Positions 3,500-27,305 of a stretch of DNA of 53,100 bases are shown one piece after another. The position numbers were made by a program, and so were the translations under genes. The first letter of the stretch is position 1, and every line of letters starts with the position of its first letter. Below the pieces are notes generated by a model. The model did no database searches. It was not told where the DNA came from and worked only from the letters and a program-made list of their open reading frames with translations. Source of the stretch: Paracidovorax cattleyae (GTDB lineage Bacteria > Pseudomonadota > Gammaproteobacteria > Burkholderiales > Burkholderiaceae_C); assembly GCF_900104515.1 (NCBI RefSeq), contig NZ_FNJL01000024.1:42142-95241 (forward strand). Direction: 5' to 3'.

Positions 3500-3559
3500 C
3501 GTTGCAGGGTTTTCACTTCTTAAGGGAGATTCATGGGGCGCCGGGTGGGTGGCTGCCGG

Positions 3560-5026: not shown

Positions 5027-5039
5027 GGGTTTCTCCTCG

Positions 5040-5125
5040 TATTTGTGCGGTATTGTTGGGTAAATAATTCTTGATGATTTCGATTTGAAAAAAATTTAAT
5101 TTCTGCAGAGATTAATTATTTTGTA
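5040..5125 (-). promoter_or_regulatory. A/T-rich promoter region of the carboxyltransferase–monooxygenase pair
   Basis: This stretch between the divergent carboxyltransferase and trehalase genes is rich in A and T runs, in strong contrast to the surroundings. It directly precedes the GAGGAG–TTG start of the minus-strand gene. It is the natural place for that operon's promoter, but I cannot pick a single -35/-10 pair with confidence. Confidence 0.4.
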
Positions 5126-5281
5126 TGCGGATGCGAAGTCACGGCGCTGCGTCCGACGTGCTGCCCGGGCATTTCCGACAGGGAATGGGCGGGATGCGGT
5201 GCTCCAATGCCAGAACTCGGCCGTGGCCCATCTGCTGTCGCGATGACCGAAGGCTTTATCCACCCGCCCCTGACCCGCCGC

Positions 5282-6982: not shown

Positions 6983-7103
6983 GCCCACGGTTGAAAATAC
7001 CCATCTTCGAGGAGATGTCAGAGTCGCACGGTCCAGAGGGTAGTCCTGCCATGTGGCTGACGGAGCAGACCTTGGGGTGCGCGTCTACTGCTCGTAGCCG
7101 CTG

Positions 7104-7786
7104 CTAGAGCTTCTGTCTGAGATCTGCGGGGTTCACCATTCTCGAGTGCTTTTCGCTTTGCTCGACATGGAGCACGATCCTGAGGGATCGGCATTCAAGT
7201 AATTGCTGGCTCGGCGCGTTTTCACCCGTGTCCTGGGCGTTCAGGCGGGCGGGCAGCATGGAAGCGAGAGTATGCAGAACCTTGGCCGCGACCGCATCGG
7301 CCAGCTTTCCGTATCCGGGTGCCGGTAGTCCTTCACTTCCACGAAATATGCATGCTTTTCGGGGGAGAGCGCGACGACATCCACCGCTTTCCTGGGAGCG
7401 TTGCCCACGGCGACTTCCGACTTGCTGTTCGTGGCAACGCTGAAGTCGATGTTCAACTCTGCGTCGGAGAAAAGCAGGGAGACATCGCACCGCTCTCGGC
7501 CCTGCCGCCTCCGGGCAAGGCGTCCCAGGCATTCCGGGCGGAACACATTGACGAGCTTGGTGGCAAGAAGGCTTTGCAGCGCAGATTTGGTCGGCGTCTC
7601 TGCAGTTGGTTTCCTGCCCTCGTCATGGCTGGCCGCCATGACGGAATAGGCGGCTTTCGGCAAATGCGTTTTGCCCGCGCCGTTCTCGCCAACGATCACA
7701 TTCAGTTGAGCAGAGAAGTCCGGTTTCACGTCGGAAAACACCGTGAAATTTTTCAGATGCATCTGCTTCAGCATTGTTTTGCTCAC
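7104..7786 (-). pseudogene. Broken chimera: AAA ATPase N-terminus fused to an EVKD-motif protein, frameshifted
   Basis: From the ATG at 7786 the first ~126 residues read as the head of an SMC/RecF-like AAA ATPase (LKNFTVFSDVKPDFSAQLNV, Walker A GENGAGKTH at 34–42), but the protein then stops resembling an ATPase: no ABC signature or Walker B follows. From about residue 131 (near 7396) the sequence becomes KAVDVVALSPEKHAYFVEVK, which looks like a different protein with a nuclease-like E-x-K motif. At 7306–7308 the frame breaks. Adding one T to the TTT run (one A on the minus strand) joins HPDTE to KLADAVAAKVLHTLASMLPA and keeps the frame open to the TAG at 7104. This looks like a two-gene cassette fused by internal deletion and then frameshifted. 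Confidence 0.7.
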
Positions 7787-8000
7787 CTGGCGTTGGGGTG
7801 GACGTAGCGCCTTTTTCTAGTTGAAGAGATGTCGTTCATGCCGATGGTAGCCAGTGCCCGGGCTTTCGATGCGACGTCCCTGCTTTCAGTCGTATCCTCT
7901 CTGGCGCAAGGGCAGGAGTGAGCGGCCGAGGCTCCCTCCGCGGCATATGCAGACATCGTCTGGCCATCGTCGCAGCACTCTGGCGGGCGTCCGGCACCTT

Positions 8001-8023
8001 CGCGGGGCTTTGTCATCCCCGCG
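8001..8023. repeat. 7-bp perfect inverted repeat upstream of the kinase gene
   Basis: CGCGGGG (8001–8007) and CCCCGCG (8017–8023) form a perfect hairpin with a 9-base loop, 57 bp before the kinase start. No T-run follows, so it is not a classical terminator. It may be a leader structure or an operator. The rest of 7787–8079 shows nothing I can assign. Confidence 0.35.
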
Positions 8024-8079
8024 CCATATGGGGATTCCATACTGGATGCATCTTGTTACATGCGTGGATCGCCCCTGCC

Positions 8080-10422
8080 ATGACCGTCCGCTTGCGCATC
8101 ACCCTGCTGATCGTTCTCGCCTTTCTCGCGCTGTGCTCCGTCGGAGGCTTCGCGCTCTACCGGTCGGCCGAGGGGGCCCGGCAGGTCAAGCGGGTGACCG
8201 AGGGCGTCGTGCCCAGCGCCATCCATTCCGTGGAGCTCATGGGCCAGCTCAAGGACGTGCAGATGGCTGCGCTGGGCATGGTGTCCGCGAACGACGCGGA
8301 TACCGCGCAGAAGCTGCACGAGCAGCTGGTGGAGCGCAAGGCGGTGCTGCAGAAGGCACTGCAAAAGCAGCTGGAGGAGGCCGACAGCGATGCGCAGCGT
8401 GGCCTGGTGAAGGAAGCCGCCATGAGCCTGGAGAACTACTTCGCGGCCATCGACGACACCGCGCGCTTCAAGCTCGCCGGTCAGCAGGATGCGGCCGAGG
8501 CCTTCATGGCCGCCACGGTGGACCAGTACCTGCGCGAGCAGGGCCAGATGATCGAGGCCATCCAGGTGGAAAAGCGCCGCAGCAAGGACGAGGCCATCGG
8601 CTCGCTCAATGCGCAGCTGGAGCACACCACCGCCGCGCTGCTGGGCGTGGGCGCCGTGGCCCTCCTGGGCCTGGCCGCCGCGGGGACCATGCTGTATCGG
8701 CAGATCGTGCGTCCGATCCGCGAGATGGAGCTGAAGATGACGGAGATCGCCATGAGCCAGGATTTCTCGCACCGCCTGCCTGTCACCCGTATGGACGAGA
8801 TCGGCCGCTCCCTCACGGCGTTCAACGCCATGGTGGAGAAAATCCAGGAAAGCTCCGAACTGGTGCGCCGCAAGACGGCCGACATCCAGGCCATGCTGCA
8901 CACCATTCCCCAGGGCATTCTGACCCTGCAGGCCGGGCGCACCATCCACCCCGAGTACTCGGACCACCTCACGCGCATCCTGCAAGAGGGCGGCATTGCC
9001 GGCCGCACGCTCGATGCACTGCTGTTCGACCGCTCCGACCTGAGTGCCGATGCGCGTGCCCAGGCCCTCGCCGCGATCGACGCCTGCATCGGCGAGGACG
9101 AACTCAACTTCTCTTTCAATGCCCACCTGCTGCCGCAGGAATTGCAGGTGCGCTTCGATGGCGGCCGTGTGAAGGTGATCGAGCTGGGCTGGTCGCCCAT
9201 CACGGCCGCCGACGGCACCGTGGAGCGCCTGCTGCTGAGCCTGCGAGACGTGACGGAGTTGCGCGAACTGGCGCGGGATGCCCAGGCGCGCAAGGAGGAC
9301 CTGGCCATGGTCGGCGAACTGCTGGGCGTGGCGGCGGACAAGTTCCGGCAGTTCGCCGACAGCTCCGTGCGCCTACTGCAGGACAAGCGCGCGCTGCTGG
9401 AGACCGCGGCATCGCGGCCCGATGCGCGCCCGGATGCCCTCGCGGCGCTGTTCCGCCACATGCACACCGTCAAGGGAAACGCCCGCACCTACGGCCTCCT
9501 GCGCATCGCCGACGCGGCCCATGTGGCCGAGCAGCGCTACGCCGCGCTGCGGGACGACCCCGCCGGCTGGGACGATGCCGCCCTGCAGGCCACATTGCAG
9601 GCCGAACTGGAGGCGGTGGCAGGGGCCCTGCAATCCTACGTGCGCGTGAACGACGGCACCCTGGGGCGCGGCGCCGCTCCCGCGGCTGGCGATGCCCAGG
9701 CGGTGCGCCTGCCGCGCGCCCGCATCGATGCGTTGTGCGCGCGCATCGGCACCCTGGCGCAGGACCCCGGCTGCACGCCGGACCACCGCGCCGCGCTGCA
9801 GCGCATCGCCAACGCGCTCGCCGATGCCGACGCGGCCGGCCTGGACGAGGTGGTGGATGGCGTGGCCGCGTCCCTGCCGGCGCTGGCCCGGGACCTGGGC
9901 AAGGAGTCTCCGGAGGTCGTCCTGCAGTCCGGGGTGCCTGTGGCCGTGAAGCCGCAGGCCGCCGATGCGCTGCGCAATGCCTTCATGCACCTGTTGCGCA
10001 ATGCGCTGGACCACGGCATCGAACCTGCGGCCGAGCGCGCGGCGCACGGCAAGCCCGCCGCGGGCCGCATCCGCATCGACACTGCACTGGACGCGCAGGA
10101 GCTGGAGATCCGGCTCGCCGACGACGGGCGCGGCCTGGACCTGGACCGCATCCAGGCCAGGGCCCGCGCGCAGGGGCTGATCGCGGAAGACGCCGCCCCG
10201 GCGCCCGAGGACGTGGCCCAGCTGATCTTCGCGCCGGGCTTTTCCACGGCCAGCGAGGTGACGGCCGTGTCCGGCCGCGGCGTGGGGATGGATGCGGTCA
10301 AGGCCTTCGTGGAGTCGCTGGGCGGCCGCATCCAGCTGGTGCTGGCCGGCGGTGCCCCGCGCGCGGCCACGCCGTTCGAGACCGTGCTGCGCCTGCCTGC
10401 CCATTGGGCGGTGGCGGCCTGA
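8080..10422 (+). CDS. Membrane Hpt/CheA-like histidine kinase with HAMP domain
   Basis: 780-residue signalling kinase. Order of parts: TM1 (about 5–25), an extracytoplasmic helical sensor (about 28–180), TM2 (about 185–207), HAMP (206–260), a degenerate PAS-like region (275–400), and an Hpt domain with the phosphorylatable His462 in MHTVKGNARTYGL. The CheA-type ATPase domain follows at about 600–770, with N-box HLLRNALDHGIE, DDGRGLD, LIFAPGFSTA and GRGVGMDAVK. It ends straight after the ATPase: no CheW-like (P5) or CheY-docking P2 domain is visible. The ATG at 8080 was chosen because it begins the TM1 leader; its ribosome site is weak. It heads a four-gene run with the MCP-like, CheX-like and CheY-like genes. 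Confidence 0.87.
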   Translation: MTVRLRITLLIVLAFLALCSVGGFALYRSAEGARQVKRVTEGVVPSAIHSVELMGQLKDVQMAALGMVSANDADTAQKLHEQLVERKAVLQKALQKQLEEADSDAQRGLVKEAAMSLENYFAAIDDTARFKLAGQQDAAEAFMAATVDQYLREQGQMIEAIQVEKRRSKDEAIGSLNAQLEHTTAALLGVGAVALLGLAAAGTMLYRQIVRPIREMELKMTEIAMSQDFSHRLPVTRMDEIGRSLTAFNAMVEKIQESSELVRRKTADIQAMLHTIPQGILTLQAGRTIHPEYSDHLTRILQEGGIAGRTLDALLFDRSDLSADARAQALAAIDACIGEDELNFSFNAHLLPQELQVRFDGGRVKVIELGWSPITAADGTVERLLLSLRDVTELRELARDAQARKEDLAMVGELLGVAADKFRQFADSSVRLLQDKRALLETAASRPDARPDALAALFRHMHTVKGNARTYGLLRIADAAHVAEQRYAALRDDPAGWDDAALQATLQAELEAVAGALQSYVRVNDGTLGRGAAPAAGDAQAVRLPRARIDALCARIGTLAQDPGCTPDHRAALQRIANALADADAAGLDEVVDGVAASLPALARDLGKESPEVVLQSGVPVAVKPQAADALRNAFMHLLRNALDHGIEPAAERAAHGKPAAGRIRIDTALDAQELEIRLADDGRGLDLDRIQARARAQGLIAEDAAPAPEDVAQLIFAPGFSTASEVTAVSGRGVGMDAVKAFVESLGGRIQLVLAGGAPRAATPFETVLRLPAHWAVAA

Positions 10423-15924: not shown

Positions 15925-16149
15925 GGAGGCCTTTCTTCCTCGGGGCTGGGGCCGCTGCCACCTGCCCGGCCTGCACCGCGGTGGCTCATCAGCGCGGCCG
16001 GCCCGGGCACCGACGCCGGGACGGCAGCCACCGAAGATCGAAGCTAGCACCGCCCGCCCGGCATCCACGCCAGCGGCGCGGACCGTCGTCGCGTAGGACG
16101 AGTGCACCCCCAGCACCGGGCCGGTGGCCGCGGCACCCAGCGCGCCAGG

Positions 16150-17406
16150 TCAGGCCCGGGCTTTCTTGCGCGTATCGGGCAGCAGGGCCGTCGCCAGCCC
16201 GAGCAGCGGCAGGAATGACGTCACGCCGTACACCCAGACGATGCCATGGATGTCCGCCAGGTCGCCCAGTCCGGCCGCGCCGATACCGCCGATACCGAAC
16301 ATCAGCCCGAACATGAGGCCCGACACCAGCCCCACGCGGCCCGGTACCGCCTCCTGCGCATACACCACGAGCGCGGCGAAGGCCGACGACATCACCAGCC
16401 CGATCACGATGGCGAGCACCGCCGTCCACGCCAGGCCCACATGCGGCAGTGCCAGCGCGAACGGCGCCACGCCCAGGAACGAGATCCAGATCACCGCCTT
16501 GCGGCCGATGCGGTCGCCCACGGGCCCGCCCGCGAACGTGCCCGCCGCCACCGCCGCGAGGAACAGGAAAAGGAACAGCTGGCTGGTCTGCACGCCCACG
16601 TGGAAGCGCTCGATCAGGTAGAACGTGAAGTAGTTGGTGAACGAAGCGATATAGACGAACTTCGCGAACATCAGCACGCAGATCACGGCCACGGCCCGCA
16701 CCACGCCGGCCCGGTCCAGCCCCTCGCTGCCGCCCCGCGCCAGCCCCCGGGCCTTCGCTGCCCCATGGTGCCGCACCCACGCCGTGAGGCGGTAGAGCAC
16801 GAAGATCGCCAGCAGCGCCGCCACCATGAACCACGCGACCGCCGGCTGCCCGTGCGGAATCACGATGGCCGCCGTCAGCAGCGGCCCGATCGCCGTGCCC
16901 GTATTGCCGCCCACCTGGAACGTGGACTGCGCCGTGCCGAACCGCCCGCCCGAGGCCAGCCGCGCGATCCGCGACGCCTCCGGGTGGAACGTGGCCGAGC
17001 CCACGCCCACCACCGCGGCCGCGAGCAACAGCATCGGATAGCTGTGCGCCACGGCCAGCAGCGCGATGCCCAGCAGCGTCATGCACATGCCTGCGGGCAG
17101 CAGGTAGGGCTTGGGATGCTTGTCGGTGTAGAACCCGATCCACGGCTGCAGCAGCGATGCCGTCACTTGATAGACCAGCGCGATGATCCCGATCTGCCCG
17201 AAGCTCAGCGAGAAATTCGTCTTCAGCATCGGGAAGATCGACGGCAGCATCGCCTGGATCATGTCGTTGAGCAGGTGGGCGAAGGCCGCGCCGCCGACGA
17301 TGGGCAGAAGAAAGCCCTGGGGTGTGGCGTCCTGCATCGGCGGAGTGGCGGGGGCGGGCGGGGCGAAGGGCGCGGGTTGCGCGGTGTCTGCGGTCGTGGC
17401 GGTCAT
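16150..17406 (-). CDS. fsr: MFS exporter, fosmidomycin-resistance (Fsr) type
   Basis: 418-residue major facilitator with about 12 hydrophobic segments. It carries the Fsr-family pattern FAHLLNDMIQAMLPSIFPML in the first helix, then FYTDKHPKPYLLP, SATFHPEASRIARLASGGR and FQVGGNTGTAIGPLL. These exporters expel small antibiotics such as fosmidomycin; the real substrate here is unknown. The N-terminal ~28 residues are Ala/Pro/Thr-rich. It lies on the same strand as the UvrA2 gene, about 225 bp upstream, and may be transcribed with it. Confidence 0.88.
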   Translation of the reverse strand: MTATTADTAQPAPFAPPAPATPPMQDATPQGFLLPIVGGAAFAHLLNDMIQAMLPSIFPMLKTNFSLSFGQIGIIALVYQVTASLLQPWIGFYTDKHPKPYLLPAGMCMTLLGIALLAVAHSYPMLLLAAAVVGVGSATFHPEASRIARLASGGRFGTAQSTFQVGGNTGTAIGPLLTAAIVIPHGQPAVAWFMVAALLAIFVLYRLTAWVRHHGAAKARGLARGGSEGLDRAGVVRAVAVICVLMFAKFVYIASFTNYFTFYLIERFHVGVQTSQLFLFLFLAAVAAGTFAGGPVGDRIGRKAVIWISFLGVAPFALALPHVGLAWTAVLAIVIGLVMSSAFAALVVYAQEAVPGRVGLVSGLMFGLMFGIGGIGAAGLGDLADIHGIVWVYGVTSFLPLLGLATALLPDTRKKARA

Positions 17407-17618
17407 CGTGGGGGGGAAATGGCTTTACAGGCCGGCGTCCCTGGCCTGCCGGTGGGGGCAGGCCAGAGCGGCCGTGGAAAAGCACCGAGCGTAAGCCGTT
17501 GGCCTGTGGCAGGTTCGCGCGCTGCTGCCAATGTCTGTCGTGATCCTGCCATTGCGCATGGCGCCGATCCCCAGGAGGAAGGCATGGCGGGTCAGCGCGA
17601 TGGAAGTCGGCTCGCCGC

Positions 17619-18050
17619 ATGTACAGCGATGACACCGCGCTGCTCGCGCATCTGCAGGCTCTCGAAACAGAACTGCACCGGCCGGCGACCCGCAGGGACG
17701 CCGCGCGGCTCGGCGCACTGCTGCACGGGGATTTCGGGGAGATCGGGCGATCCGGCGTGGCTTACATCAAGGCCGGCGTACTGGCGCAGTTGTCCCTGGA
17801 GGCAGCGCATGCCTACATCGTCGCGGGCGGGTTTGAGCTGAAGCGGCTGGGCGCGGCGGTCGCGCTCCTCACCTGCCGCTCGGCGCATCGGATGGAGCAC
17901 GGGATGTTGCAGCGGGTGACCCTGCATGCGTTCATCTGGGAAAGATCGGGAGCGCAGTGGCGCATGCGGTTCCACCAGGGAACCCCCGCCGCAGCTTCGG
18001 TGGCCAGCCTCGCCTATCTGTCGCAATTTCTGCCGCCAGGTGGTTCCTGA
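17619..18050 (+). CDS. DUF4440/SnoaL-like small protein
   Basis: 143-residue soluble protein. The layout (helical start with LLAHLQALETELH, then LGALLHGDFGEIGRSG, strands VALLTCRSAH and LHAFIWERSGAQWRMRFHQG) matches the NTF2-like DUF4440 family, a small cone-shaped fold used by enzymes and binding proteins. The family gives no firm function. It stands alone between the divergent MFS gene and the biosynthetic cluster. The start ATG at 17619 lacks a clear ribosome site. Confidence 0.7.
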   Translation: MYSDDTALLAHLQALETELHRPATRRDAARLGALLHGDFGEIGRSGVAYIKAGVLAQLSLEAAHAYIVAGGFELKRLGAAVALLTCRSAHRMEHGMLQRVTLHAFIWERSGAQWRMRFHQGTPAAASVASLAYLSQFLPPGGS

Positions 18051-18118
18051 CGCAATTGGGCGCCATGTGATTCCGGGGGGGGTCATCTGGACGGGCGGAA
18101 ACATTGCGATACAAGAAT

Positions 18119-18149
18119 TTGGAATTTACTTATTTCCTGTCGTTATACT
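18119..18149 (+). promoter_or_regulatory. Candidate promoter of the transketolase-led cluster
   Basis: TTGGAA (18119–18124) and TATACT (18144–18149) are spaced by 19 bp, in a locally A/T-rich stretch about 110 bp before the first cluster gene. The -10 element is good. The spacing is longer than ideal. Confidence 0.4.
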
Positions 18150-18258
18150 GTCATGAAAACCGGCTCTCAGCGAAGCCGCAACGCAGGCCACGTTCCTGCA
18201 TCGATCCCGGGACCGGACCGTGGATCGTTCGAATATTTCTTAGGGAGGGGGAGACACC

Positions 18259-19125
18259 ATGAGAACCCATGGAAATGGGGCAGACGGTCTGGCAGTGGCC
18301 AGGGGCACGCGGGAGCGCTCCCGGTTGGATGTCGATCATTCCAGAAAGATCGCGCAACGCGCCCGAATCCGGTGCTTGACGGTAACGGCCGAAAGCCACT
18401 TCGGCCACCTGGGCCCCGATTTCTCCGCCATAGATATTCTGACGGTCCTCTACGGATCGGTCATGGCATCCCGTTCTTTCAACGACCCGTTGCGAGACCG
18501 TTTCGTCCTCAGCAAAGGGCATGCTGCCTTGGCCCTTTATTCGGTATTGATCGAATTGGGGCTTTGGGACGAAGACATGCTGCTGGATTATGGCCGTTCA
18601 GGGGGATTGCTCGGCGGCCATCCTTCTTCCTCCATTGTCGGAATCGAAACCTGTACCGGTGCGCTGGGGCATGGATTGCCTTTCGCCACGGGTGCAGCTG
18701 CCGCTGCATCGGCCAATGGCAGCAGGCACAGGACGTTTGTCCTTCTCGGAGACGGCGAATTGCAGGAAGGGAGTAATTGGGAGGCAGCGATGTTTGCGAG
18801 CGCACGGCGCCTCGGTGATCTGACGGCCATTGTGGATCGCAACGGGCTGCAGCAAGGGCGAGGCACGGAGCAGGTCAATCCCTTGGGGCCTCTGGCAGAC
18901 AAATGGCGCGCTTTCGGTTGGGACGTCGAGGAAATCGACGGTCATGACCACGGCGCCATTTTTGACGGTCTCGCCCGGGGTGGGCGTTCAACGCAGCCGC
19001 GGTGCCTGATCGCGATGACAAAAAAGGGCAAAGGTGTTTCTTTCATGGAGGGGAATGCAGCATGGCACCACAAACTGCCTTCACCAGCGGAGGCTGCGCA
19101 GGCGCTGGAAGAGTTGAGCCGATGA
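18259..19125 (+). CDS. Transketolase-like, N-terminal (ThDP-binding) subunit
   Basis: 288 residues matching the N-terminal half of transketolase. The ThDP/Mg motif GDGELQEGSNWEA starts at residue 164; HFGHLGPDFSAIDIL, LSKGHAALALY and GGLLGGHPSS are typical upstream blocks. Together with the next gene it would form a two-subunit transketolase that moves a two-carbon ketol unit, a format common in secondary metabolism and in special sugar pathways. A very strong ribosome site (GGGAGGGGGAG) precedes the ATG at 18259. It heads the cluster. Composition is clearly lower in G+C than the flanks: 31 G/C in the 60 bases 18421–18480. Confidence 0.9.
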   Translation: MRTHGNGADGLAVARGTRERSRLDVDHSRKIAQRARIRCLTVTAESHFGHLGPDFSAIDILTVLYGSVMASRSFNDPLRDRFVLSKGHAALALYSVLIELGLWDEDMLLDYGRSGGLLGGHPSSSIVGIETCTGALGHGLPFATGAAAAASANGSRHRTFVLLGDGELQEGSNWEAAMFASARRLGDLTAIVDRNGLQQGRGTEQVNPLGPLADKWRAFGWDVEEIDGHDHGAIFDGLARGGRSTQPRCLIAMTKKGKGVSFMEGNAAWHHKLPSPAEAAQALEELSR

Positions 19126-20096
19126 ACGTGGACGAGGGCTTGGAAGACCCCAAGGACGCATTCGCCGAGGAAGTGCTGAATCTCGCCAGGCACGACCCCA
19201 GGGTTTGCCTGGTAATCAACGATTGCCTGTCTTCCACCAATGCCAAATTCTTTCTGGAAGAGTTTCCGGATCGGGTTTTTGACGTCGGTATTGCCGAACA
19301 GAACATGGTGGGCGTGGCGGCAGGCCTGGCCAGTGGCGGAATGATCCCGTTTGTCTGCGCGGCGTCATGCTTCCTTTCGGGGCGGGCACTGGAGCAGATC
19401 AAGGTGGACATCGCCATGTCGAAGGCCAACGTGAAGCTCTGCGGTTTCAGCAGCGGGTTCACCTACGGCTCGCTCGGGGCAACGCACCACGCGATCGAGG
19501 ACATCGCGTGGATCCGCGTCCTTCCGAATGTCCGCTTCGCCGCGCCATGCGACGCTCGCGAGGCGAGGGCTGTGGCCAGGGCCCTGCATGCGCACGAGGG
19601 GCCGGCATTCGTCCGGCTGGCGCGAGGTGGTCGGCGGAACATTACCAGCCGCGACGAGTATCGGTTCGGCCACGCCGAGAGGCTGCGTGACGGACGCGAT
19701 GTCGCGCTGCTGGGTACCGGTTCGATGGTGCATAACCTCGTCCAGGCTGCGCGGCTCCTGGAAGATGACGGCATCACGTGCCGCGTGCTGAATTTCTCCA
19801 GCATCGCACCGCTCGATATAGCAGCCATTGTCCAGGCCTGCCGGGATACCAGGGGAATCGTATGCGCCGAGGAGCACCAGGTCGGGGGAGGCCTGTTCGG
19901 TGCCGTTGCGGAGGTGGTCGTCAGCCGCGCGCCGGCACCGATGCTGGCGCTCGGCGTGCCCGGTGTATTCGCGCCGGTAGGCGACAGCAGCGACCTGCTC
20001 AGGCATTTCGGGCTGGAGCCCGCGCAGATGGCATCGCGTGTGCGGCACTGGCTGGTTGCGATGAATCGTGAAAACAAGGAAATGGCCAGTGCATAA
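19122..20096 (+). CDS. Transketolase-like, C-terminal subunit
   Basis: 324 residues matching the pyrimidine-binding and C-terminal halves of transketolase. The ThDP-activating Glu59 sits in DVGIAEQNMVGVAAGLA. The segments CGFSSGFTYGSLGATHHAIEDI and EEHQVGGGLFGAVAEV correspond to the conserved middle and C-terminal domains. The ATG at 19122 overlaps the TGA of the N-terminal subunit (ATGA), so the pair is translationally coupled in near 1:1 ratio. The 3' end overlaps the next gene. Confidence 0.9.
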   Translation: MNVDEGLEDPKDAFAEEVLNLARHDPRVCLVINDCLSSTNAKFFLEEFPDRVFDVGIAEQNMVGVAAGLASGGMIPFVCAASCFLSGRALEQIKVDIAMSKANVKLCGFSSGFTYGSLGATHHAIEDIAWIRVLPNVRFAAPCDAREARAVARALHAHEGPAFVRLARGGRRNITSRDEYRFGHAERLRDGRDVALLGTGSMVHNLVQAARLLEDDGITCRVLNFSSIAPLDIAAIVQACRDTRGIVCAEEHQVGGGLFGAVAEVVVSRAPAPMLALGVPGVFAPVGDSSDLLRHFGLEPAQMASRVRHWLVAMNRENKEMASA

Positions 20097-20850
20097 ACAA
20101 CCACTATTGCCGAAGGCTGCGCCCCAGGTCAGTTTCGACGACAAACCCACCAGCACTTTCTTCGTGGTCTCGGGACCCGGCGGTACGGGAAAAACCACCC
20201 TGATCAAACGTTGGCTTCGCGACTCTTCCGACCTGGGTTATGTCCCCAACGTCACGACGCGCGCCCCGCGTTCTTCCTCCGCCGTCGATGAGGCCGGATT
20301 CTACGAGTTCGTGTCGAGGCACGAATTCCAGGAAATGGTCAAGGCGGAGGCCTTCGCTCAATGGGTGAATCCTTCGGAAGGCAAGTACTACGGCACGCCG
20401 ATCAAACCCTTGCAGGAGGCCATTGCGGCGGGAAAGGACCTGGTTTTCGACTACACGCCGCAGCTGTACATCAACCTTCGCCGCCAATTCAGGGAGCAGG
20501 TCGTCGGGATATTCGTCATTCCACCGACCTTCGAGGAGCTTCTTGTGCGCCTCGAGAAACGGGGAACGGAGCGGGGCGAGGAGCTTTATATCAAGCAGCA
20601 GATGGCCCTGCAGGACCTCAGCTATGTCGATGAACACGAATACCACCTCGTCAACAAAGACCTGGATGGCAGTCTTGCGGTTCTCAAGGCGATACAAATC
20701 GCCGAAAGGCACAGGCTCACCCGCTTGAGAAACGTGGGGCCGACCTGCAAGAAGCTCTCGCCGCGTTCGATGATGTTTTACTACGATCCATTGTTCGAGC
20801 GTGTCAACCGCATCGCACAACTGCAGCCGCAAAATGCCGATGCAGAATGA
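20089..20850 (+). CDS. Guanylate-kinase-like protein
   Basis: 253 residues with a guanylate-kinase core: Walker A GPGGTGKTT (29–37), then TTRAPRSSSAVDEAGFYEFV and YYGTP, the blocks that bind GMP in guanylate kinase. It carries extra N- and C-terminal stretches, and its place inside a biosynthetic operon argues against the housekeeping gmk. It may phosphorylate a nucleotide or a nucleotide-linked intermediate. I chose the GTG at 20089, which follows AAGGA at eight bases and overlaps the previous gene by 8 bp. A GTG at 20068 in the same frame lacks a ribosome site. Confidence 0.82.
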   Translation: MHKQPLLPKAAPQVSFDDKPTSTFFVVSGPGGTGKTTLIKRWLRDSSDLGYVPNVTTRAPRSSSAVDEAGFYEFVSRHEFQEMVKAEAFAQWVNPSEGKYYGTPIKPLQEAIAAGKDLVFDYTPQLYINLRRQFREQVVGIFVIPPTFEELLVRLEKRGTERGEELYIKQQMALQDLSYVDEHEYHLVNKDLDGSLAVLKAIQIAERHRLTRLRNVGPTCKKLSPRSMMFYYDPLFERVNRIAQLQPQNADAE

Positions 20851-21835
20851 ATACAGTGAATTGATCCCGCTGCTCACGGTGCAGGATGCCAAGATCCAGG
20901 CTTACCGGAGCGATTTCGTTTCGGAGGAAGCGTGGGACATCCTGTGCCGGGTCTGGGGCGATCGTGTGGGCGAATTCGTCTATGGGCATTCATTCGTGCT
21001 GATTAAGCCCGAGGCCCTGGCCAGGCGTTGCAGCCAGTCAGTGCTACTGTTCCTGCAAAAGAAGAGGCTGGTACCTGTTGCAGTGACACCGGTATCCGTT
21101 GACCGGAATGCCGCACACCTCATATGGCGTTTTCAGTGGAATGCAGCGACGGTGGATCGGGTGCGGTTGACCAATATGGTCAATGCGCAAAGCGATTCCA
21201 TCCTGGTTATGGTGCGTGACGCTGACCACGGGGTGGTTCCCGCGTCGGTCAAGCTCTGGGGCATGAAAGGTTCCGCCCATGCCGATCGGCGCAATGAACA
21301 GCATTTACGCACCTTGCTGCGCATGCACAACCGGATGCTGGGTTTCGTCCACACACCCGACGAGCCAGCGGATCTCGTTCGAGACCTGTCGATTCTGCTC
21401 GGAGGTCCGGCCCTGGTTGCGCTGGTGCGCGACTGCGCCGCCGCTCCTGCGAGGTCCGCTGTCGATCTAGCCGCCAGCGTATGCGCCGAGGTGCTGCGCA
21501 CCGAGGCTGCATCGCGGAAGAACGAAATCGATCCCGCGCGCTCCATGGCGCGGCTCCAGGATGCCTTGGGCCGGAGGTCTCCAGGGCTTCGCGCGCTCGC
21601 GGATGCCATGCAAAGCAATACCAAGCTACCGCTCGATGCGGTCCTCGAAGCGGTCGATGGCGGGTTGGCGCAGCCATGGGACGTGCTCACCATCGCGTCC
21701 GAAGTGATCCGGCACGACAGGCCCGGTGTCAAGCCCCTGATCGATGCACGCGCGGTCGGCGAAGTCACTTCGCGGTGGGCCGAGCACGGCGCGGTTCTGA
21801 AAAACGCACTCGATGAGTCAATTCATGCTTTCTAG
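20834..21835 (+). CDS. NDP-kinase-like domain protein with unknown C-terminal half
   Basis: 333 residues. The N-terminal half holds a diverged nucleoside-diphosphate kinase domain: FVLIKPEAL with Lys58, and MLGFVHTPDEPADLVRDL with His173, in the place of the phosphorylated active-site His. So catalysis may be retained even though overall similarity is weak. The C-terminal ~140 residues are helical, Ala/Arg-rich and unknown to me. It overlaps the guanylate-kinase-like gene by 17 bp and the next gene by 23 bp. The start could be 20834 or 20840; neither has a strong ribosome site, consistent with coupling to upstream translation. Confidence 0.7.
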   Translation: MPMQNEYSELIPLLTVQDAKIQAYRSDFVSEEAWDILCRVWGDRVGEFVYGHSFVLIKPEALARRCSQSVLLFLQKKRLVPVAVTPVSVDRNAAHLIWRFQWNAATVDRVRLTNMVNAQSDSILVMVRDADHGVVPASVKLWGMKGSAHADRRNEQHLRTLLRMHNRMLGFVHTPDEPADLVRDLSILLGGPALVALVRDCAAAPARSAVDLAASVCAEVLRTEAASRKNEIDPARSMARLQDALGRRSPGLRALADAMQSNTKLPLDAVLEAVDGGLAQPWDVLTIASEVIRHDRPGVKPLIDARAVGEVTSRWAEHGAVLKNALDESIHAF

Positions 21836-22856
21836 AAATGAGGAACGCGGTCAGGTCTACAGCCTGCTCAACGGCAACGTGCACCTGTCCAGTGACTTCA
21901 TTCTGGACAATGCCTACCTGCGGGATGGAGATGCGGCCTTCGTCGGCGGCTCGTTGATCGAGGGCATCGGAAATTCCATGTCCGACGTGGATGTCCATGT
22001 GGTGACCGATGAGCTTCGGCGGGAGCGGGACATCGCACTGGACAGGCACTACAGGACGCTCAGCACGGACCGTTCGATCCTGACGGGGGCGGCGCCGACG
22101 GCGGAGGTGTTCCTCATCCACACCGTCGTGCCCTCCACGCACATCAAGGTGGACATCGAATACCGCTCGAAGGCCGATATGGATGCCCTGGTGTCCCAGG
22201 TCCGCAGTACCTTCGATTACGCCACCCGATCGCTGGTGCTGCTCACGAAGTACATGAGTGCTCGCGACATGGCCTTCGTGCATCGGCTCTTTCATTCGCA
22301 TGGACTGGCCGGCAAGGCCTATCTCGACGACCTGCGCGACCGCATGGGTCTCAAGGTATTCCAGTACCTGATGTACCGCTGGAAGGCTTCCGATTTCTCT
22401 GTGCTGCTCGACATCGTCGGCGCTTGGAATGAGGGCGAGTGGGCCCGCTGCGCCGACCTTGCGCGCGAGAACATGGTTACCCAGTTCCATGCATACACGC
22501 ACCTGTGCGGAAACACCAATTACCACAGGAAGTGGATCGTCCGGTACGGCGCGAGGGCGGGTGTGGATGCGCTGCTCTACGGGCGCTATCTGCATTTGCT
22601 GCTGGCCGGTTGCGGACGGGATACCGGGGAGACGAAGGCGTACATACTCGCCACCATCGACTTCATCGATGAACTTTTCGAGGCCAGCCGCCTGCTGCTT
22701 CAGGCCGAACCGCTGTTTCCCTCCGGTGCGCTGGCGAAGGAGCGTGTCGCCGCGTTCTTCCAGCATGAGACGGAAGAATATTCGGACATGGAAATGCAAT
22801 ACCGTCTGAGAGTGTACGAACCCACCGGCAACGCGACGCGGGCATGGTTCGCATGA
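21813..22856 (+). CDS. Nucleotidyltransferase (Pol-beta/MNT superfamily)
   Basis: 347 residues. Near the N-terminus FVGGSLIEGIGNSMSDVDVH carries the GGS…G…SDxDxxV signature of minimal nucleotidyltransferases, with Asp58 and Asp60. A third acidic residue, Asp114, sits in HIKVDIEY. These enzymes transfer NMP to a hydroxyl, phosphate or protein. The remaining two thirds is helical and not recognised. The start overlaps the NDP-kinase-like gene by 23 bp; ATG 21825 is an alternative. In this cluster it may activate a small intermediate as an NMP derivative; that is inference. Confidence 0.8.
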   Translation: MSQFMLSRNEERGQVYSLLNGNVHLSSDFILDNAYLRDGDAAFVGGSLIEGIGNSMSDVDVHVVTDELRRERDIALDRHYRTLSTDRSILTGAAPTAEVFLIHTVVPSTHIKVDIEYRSKADMDALVSQVRSTFDYATRSLVLLTKYMSARDMAFVHRLFHSHGLAGKAYLDDLRDRMGLKVFQYLMYRWKASDFSVLLDIVGAWNEGEWARCADLARENMVTQFHAYTHLCGNTNYHRKWIVRYGARAGVDALLYGRYLHLLLAGCGRDTGETKAYILATIDFIDELFEASRLLLQAEPLFPSGALAKERVAAFFQHETEEYSDMEMQYRLRVYEPTGNATRAWFA

Positions 22857-23674
22857 GTGAATTGCGGCCTCTCGTCGGCGTTTCGTGCTGCCTGCGCGGC
22901 ATCGCGTTTGGTGACTACCCTCCGACGCCTCATCACACCGCATTTCACAAGTACGTGGACTATGTTCTCGATGAACTGCAGGCCGTACCGGTCCTGATTG
23001 CCGCTACACCGTCGCTTGGCGGGCCTGCCGGCGCACTTTCATTGCTCGCCGAACGTCTGGATGGGGTGTTGTTCACGGGCTCGCCGAGCAACGTGGGACT
23101 GCGGCGCCGAGGCGATGAACTGATCGAGATCGAACCTGTCGGCCAGCCGGACAGGGCGCGCGACGAGACCACGCATTGGCTGATCCGGCATTGCCTGTCG
23201 CAGGGAGTTCCCATGCTGGGGATCTGCCGTGGAATGCAGGAGATGAATGTGGCCTGTGGCGGGGGATTGCACGAGCAGGTCCACGAGCTGGGATGTTTCG
23301 AGGACCATCGGTCGGACAAGTCGCTTCCTTACCGGGAAAGATACAGGGCGCGCCATCCGATTCGCATCCACAGGGGAAGCTACTTGAGCGAATTGATCGA
23401 ACGGTCGGGCCACATGGGCCTGGAGCAGAAGGTGAACTCCCTGCATTCGCAGGCAGTGTCGGATCTGGGGGAGGGGGTCGCCGTTCAAGCTACCAGCGAG
23501 GACGGCTTGACCGAAGCGATCGTCCTGACCCGTGCGCGTGAATTCGCGATGGGCGTCCAGTGGCACATCGAATGGGGAGCGAGCGCGGGCGATCTGGACA
23601 AGGTCATTTCCAGTGCCTTTCGTGCAGCGTGCGTCGGCCGGGCCCGGCGCACGGATCGCAAGGCGGTGCCATGA
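22853..23674 (+). CDS. PuuD-like gamma-glutamyl hydrolase / class I glutamine amidotransferase
   Basis: 273 residues of the peptidase C26 family. The nucleophile Cys125 is in MLGICRGMQEMNV, and His238 and Glu240 are in QWHIEW, completing the triad. The closest functional type is PuuD, which removes a gamma-glutamyl group from an amine intermediate. No gamma-glutamyl ligase is in the window, so it may instead act on another glutamyl or amide bond. ATG at 22853 overlaps the previous stop (ATGA), and its own stop overlaps the next ATG. Confidence 0.85.
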   Translation: MSELRPLVGVSCCLRGIAFGDYPPTPHHTAFHKYVDYVLDELQAVPVLIAATPSLGGPAGALSLLAERLDGVLFTGSPSNVGLRRRGDELIEIEPVGQPDRARDETTHWLIRHCLSQGVPMLGICRGMQEMNVACGGGLHEQVHELGCFEDHRSDKSLPYRERYRARHPIRIHRGSYLSELIERSGHMGLEQKVNSLHSQAVSDLGEGVAVQATSEDGLTEAIVLTRAREFAMGVQWHIEWGASAGDLDKVISSAFRAACVGRARRTDRKAVP

Positions 23675-24420
23675 GCAGCGGGTTCATTCCGGGTGCTGCA
23701 GACCAGGGCCTGTCCGGCAAGGTCGCGATCATTACAGGTGCGTCCAGCGGCATCGGCATGGCGCTGGCGGGCAAGCTGGCAGACAGGGGAATGCAGCTCG
23801 TTGTGCATGGTCGCCGCGAAAGCCGTTTGAAATCGCTCGCATCCCGATATGCCGGCATCGAATGGATCGCTGGCGATCTGACCGAGGGCGACGCATGCTC
23901 GCGATTGCTCGAGCGAGCGGTGAGCTGTTTCGGCCGGGTCGATTTCGCCGTCAACAATGCCGGTGTCAACCATACCGGGACCATCGAGCAGATCGATATC
24001 GATCAGGTCTGCGCCATGTCCCGCATCAATGTCGAGGCAGCCTATCGGTTCACATACACCCTGCTGAAGCAGTTCCGTGGGCAGGGACATGGCCACCTGA
24101 TACACACCACCAGCATCATGGGCCACAAGGTGCGGGAGACCGCCGGGGCCTATGCGGGTACGAAACATGCCATCGAGGCGCTGTGCGAAGCCCTGCGCAT
24201 GGAGCTCGCCCGCAGCCGAATCAAGGTGTCGTGCGTCGCCCCGGGCCTCGTGGAGACGGAGCTGCACCGCGATGCGGCGGTGCGGCCGGCAGTCGCCCGG
24301 AACATTGCCCGGCCGCTCCAGCCGGATGATGTTGCCGAGAGGATTCTCTGGCTCATGCTGCAGCCTGCCCACATCAACGTACCTCAACTCATCGTGCTTC
24401 CCCAGGATCATCCGATCTGA
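23671..24420 (+). CDS. Short-chain dehydrogenase/reductase
   Basis: 249-residue classical SDR using NAD(P)H. It shows TGASSGIG (22–29), NNAG (95–98), Ser148 and the YxxxK pair Tyr161/Lys165 (YAGTKHAIEAL). An Arg/His-Gly-Arg after strand 2 (VVHGRRESR) favours NADP. Start ATG overlaps the amidotransferase stop (ATGA). It probably reduces or oxidises a carbonyl/alcohol of the cluster's intermediate. Confidence 0.92.
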   Translation: MSSGFIPGAADQGLSGKVAIITGASSGIGMALAGKLADRGMQLVVHGRRESRLKSLASRYAGIEWIAGDLTEGDACSRLLERAVSCFGRVDFAVNNAGVNHTGTIEQIDIDQVCAMSRINVEAAYRFTYTLLKQFRGQGHGHLIHTTSIMGHKVRETAGAYAGTKHAIEALCEALRMELARSRIKVSCVAPGLVETELHRDAAVRPAVARNIARPLQPDDVAERILWLMLQPAHINVPQLIVLPQDHPI

Positions 24421-24456
24421 CGGAATTTCTCCAATCCCTGCCCGAAGAACTTCATC

Positions 24457-25299
24457 TTGGACACCGTATCACTAGGCCTCGTCATGCTCTCCGCGGTGAT
24501 GCATGCGGCATGGAATCTCTTCGTCAAGAAGGATGAGGACAAGTTTCTTTCGCTGACCGTGATGGCGGCTACCTCCGGCGGTATCTGCCTGGCGATGCTG
24601 CCATTTTTCCCAGGCATGGACCCCGCGGCCTGGAAGTGGCTGGCGGTCTCCGCACCGCTGCATGCCGGTTACCGTATCTGTCTCAGCGCGGGCTACAAGC
24701 ACGGAGACATGAGCCAGGTATATCCCATTGCCCGCGGTGCCACGCCGCTGATGGTGACGGCGATCTCGGTCCTGTTGCTGGGCACCGTGCTGGCACCCTG
24801 GAAATACGTGGGAATCGCCGTCATCGGGGCAGGCATCATGGGCCTGTCGTTCTCCCGGGGTCTTCCGAAAGGGAATGAAGGCCGGGCCATAGCGTTCGCA
24901 CTGGGGACTTCGGCATTCATCGCGGTGTTCACCTTGCTGGACAGCGAGGGTGCACGCGTGAGCGGCCAGGCGCTCACCTATGTGCTGTGGTTGTTCGTCC
25001 TCGAAGGGATGCTGATGCTGATGGTCGCGGCAGCGGCGGGTTTCAGGAAGCTGCAATCCTACGTCGCGAGGAATGGCCGAAGTTGCCTGGTCAACGGCTT
25101 CGTGATGTCGGCAGCCCACGGGCTCGTGATTCTCGCGCTGTCGCGGAGCCAGCCCGCGCTGGTTTCGGCGCTGCGCGAGACAAGCGTTGTATTCGGGGCC
25201 CTCTTCGGTGCCGTCTTCCTGAAGGAGAAAGTGGTCGGGATGCGGCTGGCCTGCACATTGTTCGTGATGGTCGGCCTCGTGCTGAGCGTGCTGGGCTGA
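24457..25299 (+). CDS. EamA/DMT-family transporter
   Basis: 280 residues with about ten hydrophobic segments and the two-fold EamA layout (AVMHAAWNLFVKKDEDKF near the start, PLMVTAISVLLLGTVLAPWK and FGALFGAVFLKEKVVGMRL near repeat ends). Members export amino acids and small metabolites. It lies 36 bp after the SDR gene and ends the plus-strand operon, so it is a reasonable exporter for the cluster's product. The conserved N-terminus starts at a TTG at 24457; an ATG at 24484 is possible. Confidence 0.87.
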   Translation: MDTVSLGLVMLSAVMHAAWNLFVKKDEDKFLSLTVMAATSGGICLAMLPFFPGMDPAAWKWLAVSAPLHAGYRICLSAGYKHGDMSQVYPIARGATPLMVTAISVLLLGTVLAPWKYVGIAVIGAGIMGLSFSRGLPKGNEGRAIAFALGTSAFIAVFTLLDSEGARVSGQALTYVLWLFVLEGMLMLMVAAAAGFRKLQSYVARNGRSCLVNGFVMSAAHGLVILALSRSQPALVSALRETSVVFGALFGAVFLKEKVVGMRLACTLFVMVGLVLSVLG

Positions 25300-25343
25300 G
25301 CCCGGGCGGTGCCGGGGCCAGGCGGTTCGATGGCTGGAGCGCG

Positions 25344-26534
25344 CTATGCGTCGAAGGCCGATGACCAGGCGTTGGATACGTCCGCCGCCAGATCGCCTCC
25401 GTCTTCCAGGCCGAGCCAGAACCGCGCAATGCAGCCCGCCCCGGGATGGCTTCTTTTTAAATGTCGCGTGGAAGCATTCTCCTTGCCGTAGAACATGACC
25501 AGGCTGGTCGGACCTCCCCACGAGAAACCAAAGTGAAAGAGGGTCAAGGCTTCGAGAAACGCCTCTATTTTTTCGGTTTCGACCGATGCGTCGAAGGCAA
25601 TGCTGAACAGGCTGGTGGCACCCGTGAAATACCGTTTCCAATGGTCGTGGCCCTGGCTGCCGCGGAAAGCCGGATGCATGACGGCCACGATCTCCTTCTT
25701 CTCCGAAAACCACTGCGCGAGGCGCAAGGACGCTTCCGTGTTGGCCGCGTACCGAAGGCTCAGCGTGGGCAGGCCCCTGAGCACCAGATAAATATCATCC
25801 GGCGAGACATGCATTCCGAGAAAATGGCGTGTTTCGCCAAGGCTGAGGGAGATGTCCTCGCGCACGCTGCCCACGCTTCCCATCACCAGATCGGCACCAC
25901 CGGACTGGAGTTTCGTCAGTGCCTGGATGGACACATGGAAGCCGAGTTCAAACACACGCAGATGGAATCCTGCGCTGTATGTATTGTCGATCGCGGCGAT
26001 GCATCCCTGTTCCTCTGCGAAGCCGGCAAGGCGCCGAAGATCCGGAACTTCCATGGTGACCGAGCCCGGTGCCTCGACGCACAACAGGCGGGTGGAAGGG
26101 GGAACGGCCCCGGCCCAGGTCTCGGGCGCCATGGGGTCATACAGCACAATTCCGATGCCGAAGCGGTGAAATACGTTCCGCAGCATTTGCTGCGCGGTGC
26201 CATAGCCGTTCGTCGGCATCGCGACGACGTCGCCGGGAGACAGCAGAGCCATGCAGATCAGCGCGTATGCCGCGAGCCCGGAAGACACCACGAGCGCTTG
26301 CCGGGCACCTTCGATGTGTGCAAGCCTGGTTTCCAGTTCGCATGCGGCGCGGGAACCATCTCTGCCGTAGGGTGGTTGGCTGCGGTTGCGCCAGTCGGCG
26401 CTTTTCAGCCGCGCGAGGGTCGGCAGGAAAATGGTGGACGCGCGGTGGACCGGGGGAAGCGTCGAGGCAGGATCGTCGGTTTCCGTGCCAGCGATGGGCT
26501 GGGACAGGAAGGTCGGGGGTGTATCGTGATGCAT
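25344..26534 (-). CDS. PLP-dependent transsulfuration-family enzyme (cystathionine gamma-synthase/beta-lyase like)
   Basis: 396 residues of the Cys/Met metabolism PLP family. Lys208 in ALTKLQSGGADLVMGS is the Schiff-base lysine. Asp183 (AIDNTYS) holds the pyridine N, and YGRDG with Tyr56/Arg58 matches the phosphate-binding Y-x-R. The family performs beta- or gamma-elimination/replacement on amino acids, which suits making an unusual amino acid. It is convergent with the exporter gene and divergent from the methyltransferase gene (41 bp). The start ATG at 26534 lacks a clear ribosome site. Confidence 0.88.
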   Translation of the reverse strand: MHHDTPPTFLSQPIAGTETDDPASTLPPVHRASTIFLPTLARLKSADWRNRSQPPYGRDGSRAACELETRLAHIEGARQALVVSSGLAAYALICMALLSPGDVVAMPTNGYGTAQQMLRNVFHRFGIGIVLYDPMAPETWAGAVPPSTRLLCVEAPGSVTMEVPDLRRLAGFAEEQGCIAAIDNTYSAGFHLRVFELGFHVSIQALTKLQSGGADLVMGSVGSVREDISLSLGETRHFLGMHVSPDDIYLVLRGLPTLSLRYAANTEASLRLAQWFSEKKEIVAVMHPAFRGSQGHDHWKRYFTGATSLFSIAFDASVETEKIEAFLEALTLFHFGFSWGGPTSLVMFYGKENASTRHLKRSHPGAGCIARFWLGLEDGGDLAADVSNAWSSAFDA

Positions 26535-26575
26535 CCAGGAGCGAAAGTAGTATCTGCGTGGAAGGGTGACGAGGC

Positions 26576-27268
26576 TTGAGGCGATTCACGATAACTAAAA
26601 ATTACCCGGTGCTTTCGGGCAAATGGGCGGATTCCCTCAAATTCTCCGTATGGGGCCTGGCCTCGTTTCTCGGCGGCCGGCGCTGGGGGCCGGCGCACGA
26701 CGAGTGGCTGAGGCGATGGCTTCCCCTGCTTCGGCACAGTGCAGGGGGCGGGGTGATCGCAGAACTCGGCTGCGGCAATGGAGCAGATCTCGCGATGCTG
26801 GCAGCCGAAGGGTTTTCCGTGGTCGGCGTCGATCGATCACCGGCAGCCATCGCCGAGGCGGGGAAAAGGATTTCGCAGCAGTTCTTGTATCGACAGGATC
26901 TTCGCGAGCATTTTCCTATAGCCGCCCACAACGCGAGCGCCGTGATCGCAAGCCTGTCGCTGCACTATTTTTCCGTTGGGCAGACGGAGGAGGTGATGCA
27001 TCGCATACGGGATTGCCTCGCTCCTGGTGGCATCTTTCTTTGCCGCGTGAACTCAACGCAAGACGTCCATTTCGGCGCGGCCGGTCATCGCCCGGTGGGA
27101 GAGGGCCAGTACCTCGTGCATGGCCAATTGAAGCGCTTTTTCGATGAAGCGTCGGCCCGCTCGTTGTGCGACGAAGGCTGGGACGTCATCAGCATTCAGG
27201 AGAAGACGATACAGCGCTATGCGCTGCCCAAGGTTGTCTGGGAAATTGTCGCGCGCCGCGCCGTTTGA
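26576..27268 (+). CDS. Class I SAM-dependent methyltransferase
   Basis: 230 residues. Motif I VIAELGCGNGADLAML (about 60–75), motif II VVGVDRSPAAI and a motif IV/post region (ASLSLHYFSVGQTEEV, DCLAPGGIFLCRVN) define a Rossmann methyltransferase. The overall pattern is of tellurite/thiol-type small-molecule methyltransferases, but the acceptor cannot be deduced. Start is a TTG at 26576, preceded by GAAGGG and GAGG. It lies 41 bp from the divergent PLP-enzyme start, too little room for two ordinary promoters, so its promoter may lie inside that gene. Confidence 0.85.
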   Translation: MRRFTITKNYPVLSGKWADSLKFSVWGLASFLGGRRWGPAHDEWLRRWLPLLRHSAGGGVIAELGCGNGADLAMLAAEGFSVVGVDRSPAAIAEAGKRISQQFLYRQDLREHFPIAAHNASAVIASLSLHYFSVGQTEEVMHRIRDCLAPGGIFLCRVNSTQDVHFGAAGHRPVGEGQYLVHGQLKRFFDEASARSLCDEGWDVISIQEKTIQRYALPKVVWEIVARRAV

Positions 27269-27305
27269 ATCGCAGGCACAGGGCCGGAATGGGCGACGGC
27301 GCCCC

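Follow-up and report, generated by a model that had tools for sequence, protein, structure and literature searches.

A nucleotidyltransferase and gamma-glutamyl hydrolase module in an accessory gene cluster of Paracidovorax cattleyae, possibly for a small exported metabolite

The window analyzed here is a stretch of 53,100 nucleotides from Paracidovorax cattleyae (NCBI RefSeq assembly GCF_900104515.1, contig NZ_FNJL01000024.1, positions 42,142 to 95,241 of the forward strand). It carries a cluster of ten genes, in which the gene of one nucleotidyltransferase (NTase) is directly followed by that of one C26-family gamma-glutamyl hydrolase. The NTase and C26 pair recurs in six lineages, which belong to five proteobacterial orders. 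Tentatively, and with a little less than even confidence, we read the cluster as a horizontally acquired operon that would make and export a small, amino-acid-like metabolite by way of nucleotidyl tagging and gamma-glutamyl unmasking; the product is plausibly an antimetabolite. The features of the locus are as follows (window coordinates and strand).

18259..19125, plus strand: TktN, N-terminal subunit of a split transketolase (Pfam PF00456, 3.5e-29; top PDB hit 6yak, a split-transketolase N chain, 5.3e-57; GDGELQEGSNWEA motif).
19122..20096, plus strand: TktC, C-terminal subunit of the split transketolase (PF02779 and PF02780; top PDB hit 6yaj, a split-transketolase C chain, 5.2e-66; GIAEQN motif).
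20089..20850, plus strand: P-loop kinase resembling guanylate kinase (GMK), with altered acceptor-site motifs (PF00625, 2e-22; alignments).
20834..21835, plus strand: long and divergent phosphotransferase resembling nucleoside diphosphate kinase (NDK) (PF00334, 3.4e-5, below cut-off; alignments; weak PDB profile match).
21813..22856, plus strand: NTase, putatively of Pol-beta-superfamily type (GxLxEGIGx3SDxD motif, alignment and tree group; no Pfam family above cut-off).
22853..23674, plus strand: C26 class-I amidotransferase-like gamma-glutamyl hydrolase, PuuD type (PF07722, 7.1e-49; PDB matches; Cys-His-Glu kept).
23671..24420, plus strand: short-chain dehydrogenase/reductase (SDR) (PF00106, 3.8e-43).
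24457..25299, plus strand: transporter of the EamA/drug-metabolite transporter (DMT) family, probably an exporter (PF00892, 4.7e-18).
25344..26534, minus strand: pyridoxal phosphate (PLP) enzyme of the Cys/Met metabolism family, MetC-like (PF01053, 1.7e-70; best PDB matches to cystathionine beta-lyase MetC).
26576..27268, plus strand: S-adenosylmethionine-dependent methyltransferase with an uncertain start codon, TTG (PF13649, 4.9e-15; homologous piece in Photorhabdus).
17553..27302, no strand: accessory insertion carrying the cluster, with one conserved major facilitator superfamily (MFS) gene on one side and one conserved ATP-binding cassette (ABC) transporter operon on the other (breakpoints in three genus-mates; low G+C and third-codon-position G+C, GC3).

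Related NTase loci, designated here by L numbers, were collected by scanning species genomes with two peptide patterns (19 loci, by a scan that can miss more distant or variant NTases) and from plasmids (2 loci). The NTase and C26 genes are adjacent in the window, in Photorhabdus, in three Rhizobiales loci (L006, L016 and L017), in one Phenylobacterium metagenome-assembled genome (MAG; L018), in one Sphingomonadales MAG (L019) and in Pectobacterium (L020). All NTases at least 32% identical to that of the window have an adjacent C26 gene, and those of at most 30% identity have none, with the exceptions that in L006 and L017 the second NTase has a C26 gene in its locus and that L027 is cut by a contig end. 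The C26 gene lies ahead of the NTase gene in L018 and L019 and behind it in the other C26-linked loci; the existence of two gene orders suggests that the pair is linked by function rather than inherited as a block. In one tree of 16 NTases, built without those of Photorhabdus and L006 and weak in its deep order, the eight C26-linked enzymes, from five lineages, form one group with a support of 100/100.

Further genes accompany the pair. Among nine C26-linked loci, a kinase-fold gene, for either a nucleoside monophosphate (NMP) kinase or an NDK, was found in nine, a PLP enzyme in eight (the exception is L015, from Photorhabdus) and a DMT or MFS transporter in eight (the exception is L019, and the match in L018 is weak, 4e-6). 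Several of the scoring profiles were built partly from the loci that they scored; in an independent Pfam check, ten of ten proteins showed the expected family above the cut-off. These ten were six thymidylate kinases, two NDKs, one gamma-glutamyl cyclotransferase and one phosphoribulokinase/uridine-kinase-like domain, which is just above the cut-off (22.3 compared to 22 bits) and fused to a HAD hydrolase. The cyclotransferase gene lies beside the NTase in L028 (9540–9983), where it represents a second type of gamma-glutamyl enzyme at the place in which others carry C26. The smallest related cluster is that of Pectobacterium, which contains the NTase, C26, NDK-like and MFS genes, plus one PLP gene on the opposite strand. 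By profile, neither the rhizobial C26 loci nor L019 yielded an NDK. The initial annotation of this DNA described the cluster as built on transketolase; we had to abandon that description, as no transketolase was found in the stretches examined of related NTase loci outside the genus, and the recurring part consists of the NTase, the C26 hydrolase, a kinase-fold gene, a PLP enzyme and an exporter.

In the unannotated loci the open reading frames (ORFs) were chosen by a simple script and many were named by eye, some being checked by Pfam; L027 and L029–L031 were assessed by profile scoring alone. Some alignment rows begin at arbitrary in-frame codons, and one profile-scored stretch ended in a partial codon. 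No kinase-fold gene was found in the three weak actinobacterial loci (L029–L031). In L026 (4222–12207) and L023 (9073–13442), NTase-family genes lie near genes that by eye resemble beta-RFA-P synthase, and L026 also has one TrpF-like gene; such genes occur in C-nucleoside biosynthesis.

In the window itself, the eight plus-strand genes from TktN to the transporter are packed with overlaps of 4, 8, 17, 23, 4 and 4 bp and one 36-bp gap, exactly as first annotated. The protein families named there agree with Pfam and NCBIfam scans (the PLP enzyme was scanned against Pfam and PDB), except for the NDK-like protein, which stays below the Pfam cut-off, and the NTase, which is recognized by its motif only. 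The G+C content is lower than that of both flanks, ∼0.59–0.63 inside compared to 0.67–0.76 outside (2-kb windows, 9–18 kb and 27–36 kb). GC3 is 0.64–0.80 inside the cluster; it is 0.90–0.95 in seven of the nine flanking ORFs measured, and 0.80 and 0.78 in the other two. The locus was thus rightly described as an accessory operon of linked metabolic enzymes, low in G+C and equipped with an exporter-family protein. No module of a nonribosomal peptide synthetase (NRPS) or polyketide synthase (PKS) was present among the scanned cluster proteins, again as annotated; the sole cross-match was between the SDR and the PKS ketoreductase domain, which SDRs commonly match. One promoter scan (0 compared to 2.2 expected) and one terminator scan (13 compared to 7.5 expected) were made, and the result was not used.

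Judged from the flanking alignments, the cluster is probably a horizontally acquired insertion of ∼9.75 kb (17553–27302). The insertion is missing from the same site in all three genus-mates compared (G008, G002 and G012; 13 genus-mates are without the NTase). The left-flank match ends at 17552 in G008 and G002 and at 17402 in G012, which retains one further matching stretch (17652–17826). In all three, the right-flank match restarts at 27303–27305, and other DNA, 1.3 to 5.6 kb long, lies between the two flanks. Genus-mate G013 aligns without a break over 15997–27268 (11.3 kb, 94.6%); beyond this stretch, 2.3 kb of other DNA separate it from the right flank. The unbroken alignment in G013, together with the absence of the block from three genus-mates, indicates that the grouping of the genes is more than chance. 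The 2.3-kb segment, which in relatives lies between the methyltransferase gene and the right flank and carries regulator, RNA-binding and reductase-like genes, was considered as part of the cluster and rejected, because similar genes occupy the site in genomes without the cluster. Different members of the genus carry different DNA between the MFS gene and the ABC-transporter operon, which makes this a variable site. No repeats of at least 14 bp were found at the insertion ends (two end stretches, each scanned separately) and no tRNA genes were found in the window; we therefore propose no insertion mechanism.

Among named relatives, the near-identical ones are Paracidovorax citrulli DSM 17060 and P. 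oryzae ATCC 19882. P. oryzae carries all ten genes with identities of 86–96%, and P. citrulli carries those covered by its contig, whose end falls inside the NDK-like gene. The initial annotation had named scattering of the genes among relatives as an argument against a cluster. They are linked in all four NTase-bearing Paracidovorax genomes, in P. citrulli as far as its contig extends, and partly linked in Photorhabdus. The cluster genes are rare. The NTase was present in 4 of the 149 relatives searched (own genome counted), all four within the 17 genomes of the genus, and in 1 of the 369 genomes sampled from the class, which is the own genome. Of 398 genomes sampled from the phylum, the NTase profile matched four, two strongly (Pectobacterium and one Rhodobacteraceae genome, both also picked up by the peptide-pattern scan) and two weakly and partially; among 295 genomes of the order of Pectobacterium, one matched. 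The NDK-like profile matched 8 of the 398 phylum genomes, 3 of them strongly (own genome counted).

Known catalytic motifs are kept in the NTase, the NDK-like protein, the C26 protein and the transketolase. The NTase motif GxLxEGIGx3SDxD is invariant in 14 aligned sequences, which also share one later, nearly invariant Glu. The NTase has no Pfam family above the cut-off (E 0.056–0.19), and its best E value in the PDB profile search was 0.47; in PDB searches with single sequences, the NTase gave two chance-level matches and the NDK-like protein gave nothing. The NTase profile matched the second NTase of L018 weakly and did not match the NTP_transf_5 protein of L011, a plasmid locus described below.

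The GMK-like protein belongs to the guanylate kinase fold family (PF00625), and this part of its first annotation stands; it is probably not a genuine guanylate kinase, because its acceptor-site residues are altered. Its score with the NCBIfam guanylate kinase model is 128.8 bits, compared to a cut-off of 160.45. The true GMKs aligned, namely the genome's own gmk product and four PDB GMKs, have FxEW or FxEH at the first site and DIDxQG/EIDFQG at the second. At the first site, the proteins of the window, P. oryzae and one Streptomyces have FAQW; at the second, the window protein, P. oryzae and the Photorhabdus piece, which spans this site only, have DYTPQL, and the Streptomyces protein has DYCPEG. 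Glu is thus replaced by Gln and the second Asp by Thr or Cys. In guanylate kinases the Glu and Asp at these sites contact guanine, and their loss makes it likely that the enzyme uses an acceptor other than GMP. The Streptomyces protein, from one plasmid of Streptomyces sp. HUAS 15-9 (L041), shares the altered sites and is 43.7% identical to the window protein; its locus likewise has a nucleotidyltransferase gene nearby, together with one for a class III aminotransferase. Different from the window, it contains pitrilysin, cupin and adenosylhomocysteinase genes and gave no C26, NDK-like or transketolase match. The Streptomyces cluster extends over 2606–14645 of L041.

The NDK-like protein is 333 residues in length and scores 24.2 bits with the Pfam NDK family, compared to a cut-off of 27. 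Alignments showed that the His expected as phospho-acceptor is kept in one HTPDEPAD-like motif, as are several Arg and Lys residues; the match of its profile to PDB NDKs is weak (best E 4e-4). Related NDKs were found in nine plasmid records, eight from Streptomyces and one from Enterobacter. Five of the nine loci were compared: an annotated nucleotidyltransferase lies nearby in L008 and L011, L010 has one weak NTase-profile match, and L009 and L012 have none. L011 (4987–17224), on a plasmid of Enterobacter chuandaensis, combines NDK-like, NTP_transf_5 nucleotidyltransferase, U32, M14 metallopeptidase and MFS genes with those of two haem-oxygenase-like iron enzymes, and this run of genes looks like a biosynthetic cluster. 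We also considered a real guanylate kinase, a housekeeping NDK and a housekeeping transketolase as identities of the window proteins and rejected them; the genome's own gmk, ndk and full-length tkt lie elsewhere. A defense system was likewise rejected; in a PADLOC search with the NTase, NDK-like, GMK-like and C26 proteins, the GMK-like protein gave three weak P-loop matches and the others gave nothing.

The C26 protein contains the C26 domain and keeps Cys-His-Glu in the alignment. Its nearest PDB entry is 7d4r, a probable glutamine amidotransferase (1.7e-49), followed by PuuD, 6vtv (3.1e-33). With the PuuD model NF008471 it scores 134.6 bits, compared to a cut-off of 266, and is not a PuuD equivalog; with the gamma-glutamyl-CDP-amidate hydrolase model, which represents the Campylobacter type, it scores 42.2 compared to 250 bits. 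The ThDP (thiamine diphosphate) and catalytic Glu motifs, which define transketolase, are both kept in the split enzyme, whose N and C parts are separate chains. The best 25 relatives of TktC among 704 plasmid records are 50–53% identical; the two compared, rhizobial split transketolases from L042 (51.2%) and L043 (50.5%), both sit in sugar operons. Different from the window, their neighbors are an FGGY kinase, SDRs and a sugar ABC transporter. Split-length TktC-like ORFs of 315 and 371 aa (40 and 39% identity) are present outside the locus in the L020 and L018 genomes, respectively.

The locus of Photorhabdus asymbiotica (L015) contains, in order, methyltransferase, GMK-like, NDK-like, NTase, C26, SDR and DMT genes, with 46–68% identity. 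No transketolase and no PLP match was found in its 21-kb stretch; the TktC matches in the same genome are ORFs of 628–672 aa away from the locus. Within 8015–11721 of L015, the methyltransferase gene and the GMK-like gene are both truncated and merge into each other, and the NTase and C26 genes are each interrupted; the Photorhabdus copy therefore looks decayed. The position of the methyltransferase piece directly upstream of the GMK-like piece suggests that the methyltransferase gene of the window, annotated as adjoining the cluster, probably belongs to it.

On our favored reading of a tagging and unmasking pathway, the NTase would attach an NMP to one pathway intermediate and the C26 hydrolase would strip a gamma-glutamyl mask. 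The GMK-like and NDK-like enzymes would recharge the released nucleotide, or else phosphorylate the intermediate; the PLP enzyme of the core would act on an amino acid, and the core exporter would remove the product. In Paracidovorax, the split transketolase could add a C2 ketol unit, the SDR could reduce, the MetC-like (Cys/Met-type) PLP enzyme could eliminate or replace a beta or gamma substituent, the methyltransferase could methylate and the DMT protein could export the product; the transketolase, SDR, PLP enzyme and methyltransferase would then represent local tailoring. We observed the gene set, the kept motifs, the accessory status and the core in six lineages directly. The order of the steps, all substrates, the mask-and-tag idea and the product, as well as the chemistry listed in the initial annotation, are what we infer.

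Several points weigh against this reading. No ligase that would attach gamma-glutamate was recognized in the Paracidovorax or the Pectobacterium cluster (an ATP-grasp gene is present in the rhizobial L006 and, by eye, in L016 and L017); therefore the mask is conjectured solely from the presence of the hydrolase, and glutamine itself could be the substrate. No obvious nucleotide-removing enzyme was recognized. C26 relatives also serve polyamine catabolism, and the putative assignment of the NTase to the Pol-beta fold depends on motifs. A clear NTase is also present in nine further loci (L007 and L021–L028); five of them have a kinase-fold gene and none has C26, so the module is not universal in the wider NTase family.

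These same genes can be read in other ways. The NMP-kinase-like and NDK-like enzymes could make the triphosphate of one modified-nucleotide antimetabolite, which the NTase would couple to an acceptor or inactivate for self-protection. NMP-kinase-fold and NDK genes do recur near NTases, and the wider family offers nucleotide genes: L007 has annotated pyrF, dihydroorotate dehydrogenase and nucleoside phosphorylase genes, and other loci have genes that by eye resemble phosphoribosyltransferases, TrpF or beta-RFA-P synthase. No nucleoside-forming gene was recognized in the window cluster or, by eye, in that of Pectobacterium, and we regard this possibility as unlikely. Somewhat more doubtful is a phosphoramidate (P-N) route that would work like that to the O-methyl phosphoramidate of the Campylobacter capsule. 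Here the NDK-like protein, through its phospho-His, would phosphorylate the amide of glutamine, or the NTase would join an NMP to it; C26 would release glutamate, and the GMK-like kinase and the methyltransferase would phosphorylate and methylate the product. The window does hold a kinase, a phospho-His kinase, an NTase and a gamma-glutamyl hydrolase side by side, and the minimal Pectobacterium cluster retains the NTase, C26 and NDK-like genes with the PLP enzyme and MFS genes. The Campylobacter system likewise uses a kinase, a nucleotidyltransferase, a class-I amidotransferase-like gamma-glutamyl hydrolase and a second kinase, but its kinases and NTase belong, we presume, to families other than those of the window proteins. 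Pol-beta enzymes usually transfer to hydroxyls, the rhizobial C26 loci and L019 gave no NDK match, and the window C26 protein, different from that of Campylobacter, fails the amidate hydrolase model and scores far higher with PuuD. As for the chemistry, the first Campylobacter step is, in the available text of PMC6429109, the N-phosphorylation of the L-glutamine amide. We give marginally less credit still to a broader version, in which the C26-linked NTases would mark an undescribed class of proteobacterial clusters making P-N bonded, nucleoside phosphoramidate-type compounds from glutamine with a set of enzymes put together separately from the Campylobacter route; Paracidovorax would add one transketolase-derived carbon unit.

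It is improbable that the genes form an operon for the breakdown of some unusual sugar or polyamine conjugate. The sugar-operon setting of both TktC relatives compared and the nearness of the C26 protein to PuuD and a probable glutamine amidotransferase would fit such an operon, but a sugar kinase, an ABC importer and a regulator are all missing from the ten cluster proteins, the transporter belongs to the EamA family, and related loci without transketolase keep the core. We know of no catabolic role for the NTase or the NDK-like protein. A phosphonate pathway with nucleotidyl activation of one C-P compound, like that of argolaphos, is very hard to credit: no phosphoenolpyruvate (PEP) mutase was found among the ten cluster proteins or, by eye, in the related loci compared (the whole genome was not searched). 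What speaks for it is that the argolaphos (alp) cluster of Streptomyces monomycini also has an NDK, a cd05403-type nucleotidyltransferase, an aminotransferase and an MFS transporter (PMC8976061, available text).

With its NDK, nucleotidyltransferase, PLP enzyme and transporter in one cluster, argolaphos is the closest described precedent that we found, likened here by its description. In the available text of PMC8976061, AlpE is a 291-aa NDK, which appears once in the main text, in one table; AlpM is a 291-aa cd05403 nucleotidyltransferase, proposed, not shown, to attach CMP; and the cluster further contains the PLP aminotransferase AlpL, the MFS transporter AlpN and an ATP-grasp gene. Different from the window, it has PEP mutase and other C-P genes, and a C26 hydrolase, a GMK-like kinase and a transketolase are absent from its table. 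According to the available text of PMC6697681, phosphonate pathways commonly use nucleotidyl activation. The cluster described here can be regarded as a variant of nucleotidyl-activation clusters. For the split transketolase, the parallel is Rif15, a two-subunit enzyme from overlapping genes in a biosynthetic cluster, which adds a C2 keto unit to rifamycin S (PMC6002545, available text). Rif15 shows that a two-subunit transketolase from overlapping genes is able to tailor a natural product. Different from the window, the Rif15 cluster makes a polyketide antibiotic, and the available text mentions no NTase, NDK or C26 partners. No described pathway with the gene set of the window was found in the open-access literature (full text, among the matches listed), and hence none that would contradict the initial annotation, which did not recognize the pathway.

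Away from the cluster, the window contains one second stretch of lower G+C (0.63–0.69, 2001–10000), and one short AAA-ATPase-like ORF, named by eye, lies inside it at 7241–7786 on the minus strand.

The recurrent module of nucleotidyltransferase, gamma-glutamyl hydrolase, kinases, PLP enzyme and exporter carries no NRPS or PKS scaffold gene. It is spread over several bacterial orders, apparently by horizontal transfer, and some of its hosts are plant-associated. If these clusters make antimetabolites, the module would be a searchable marker for a new class of products, perhaps factors in competition or plant disease, and would reveal for what purpose the divergent NDK-like and GMK-like enzymes were recruited.

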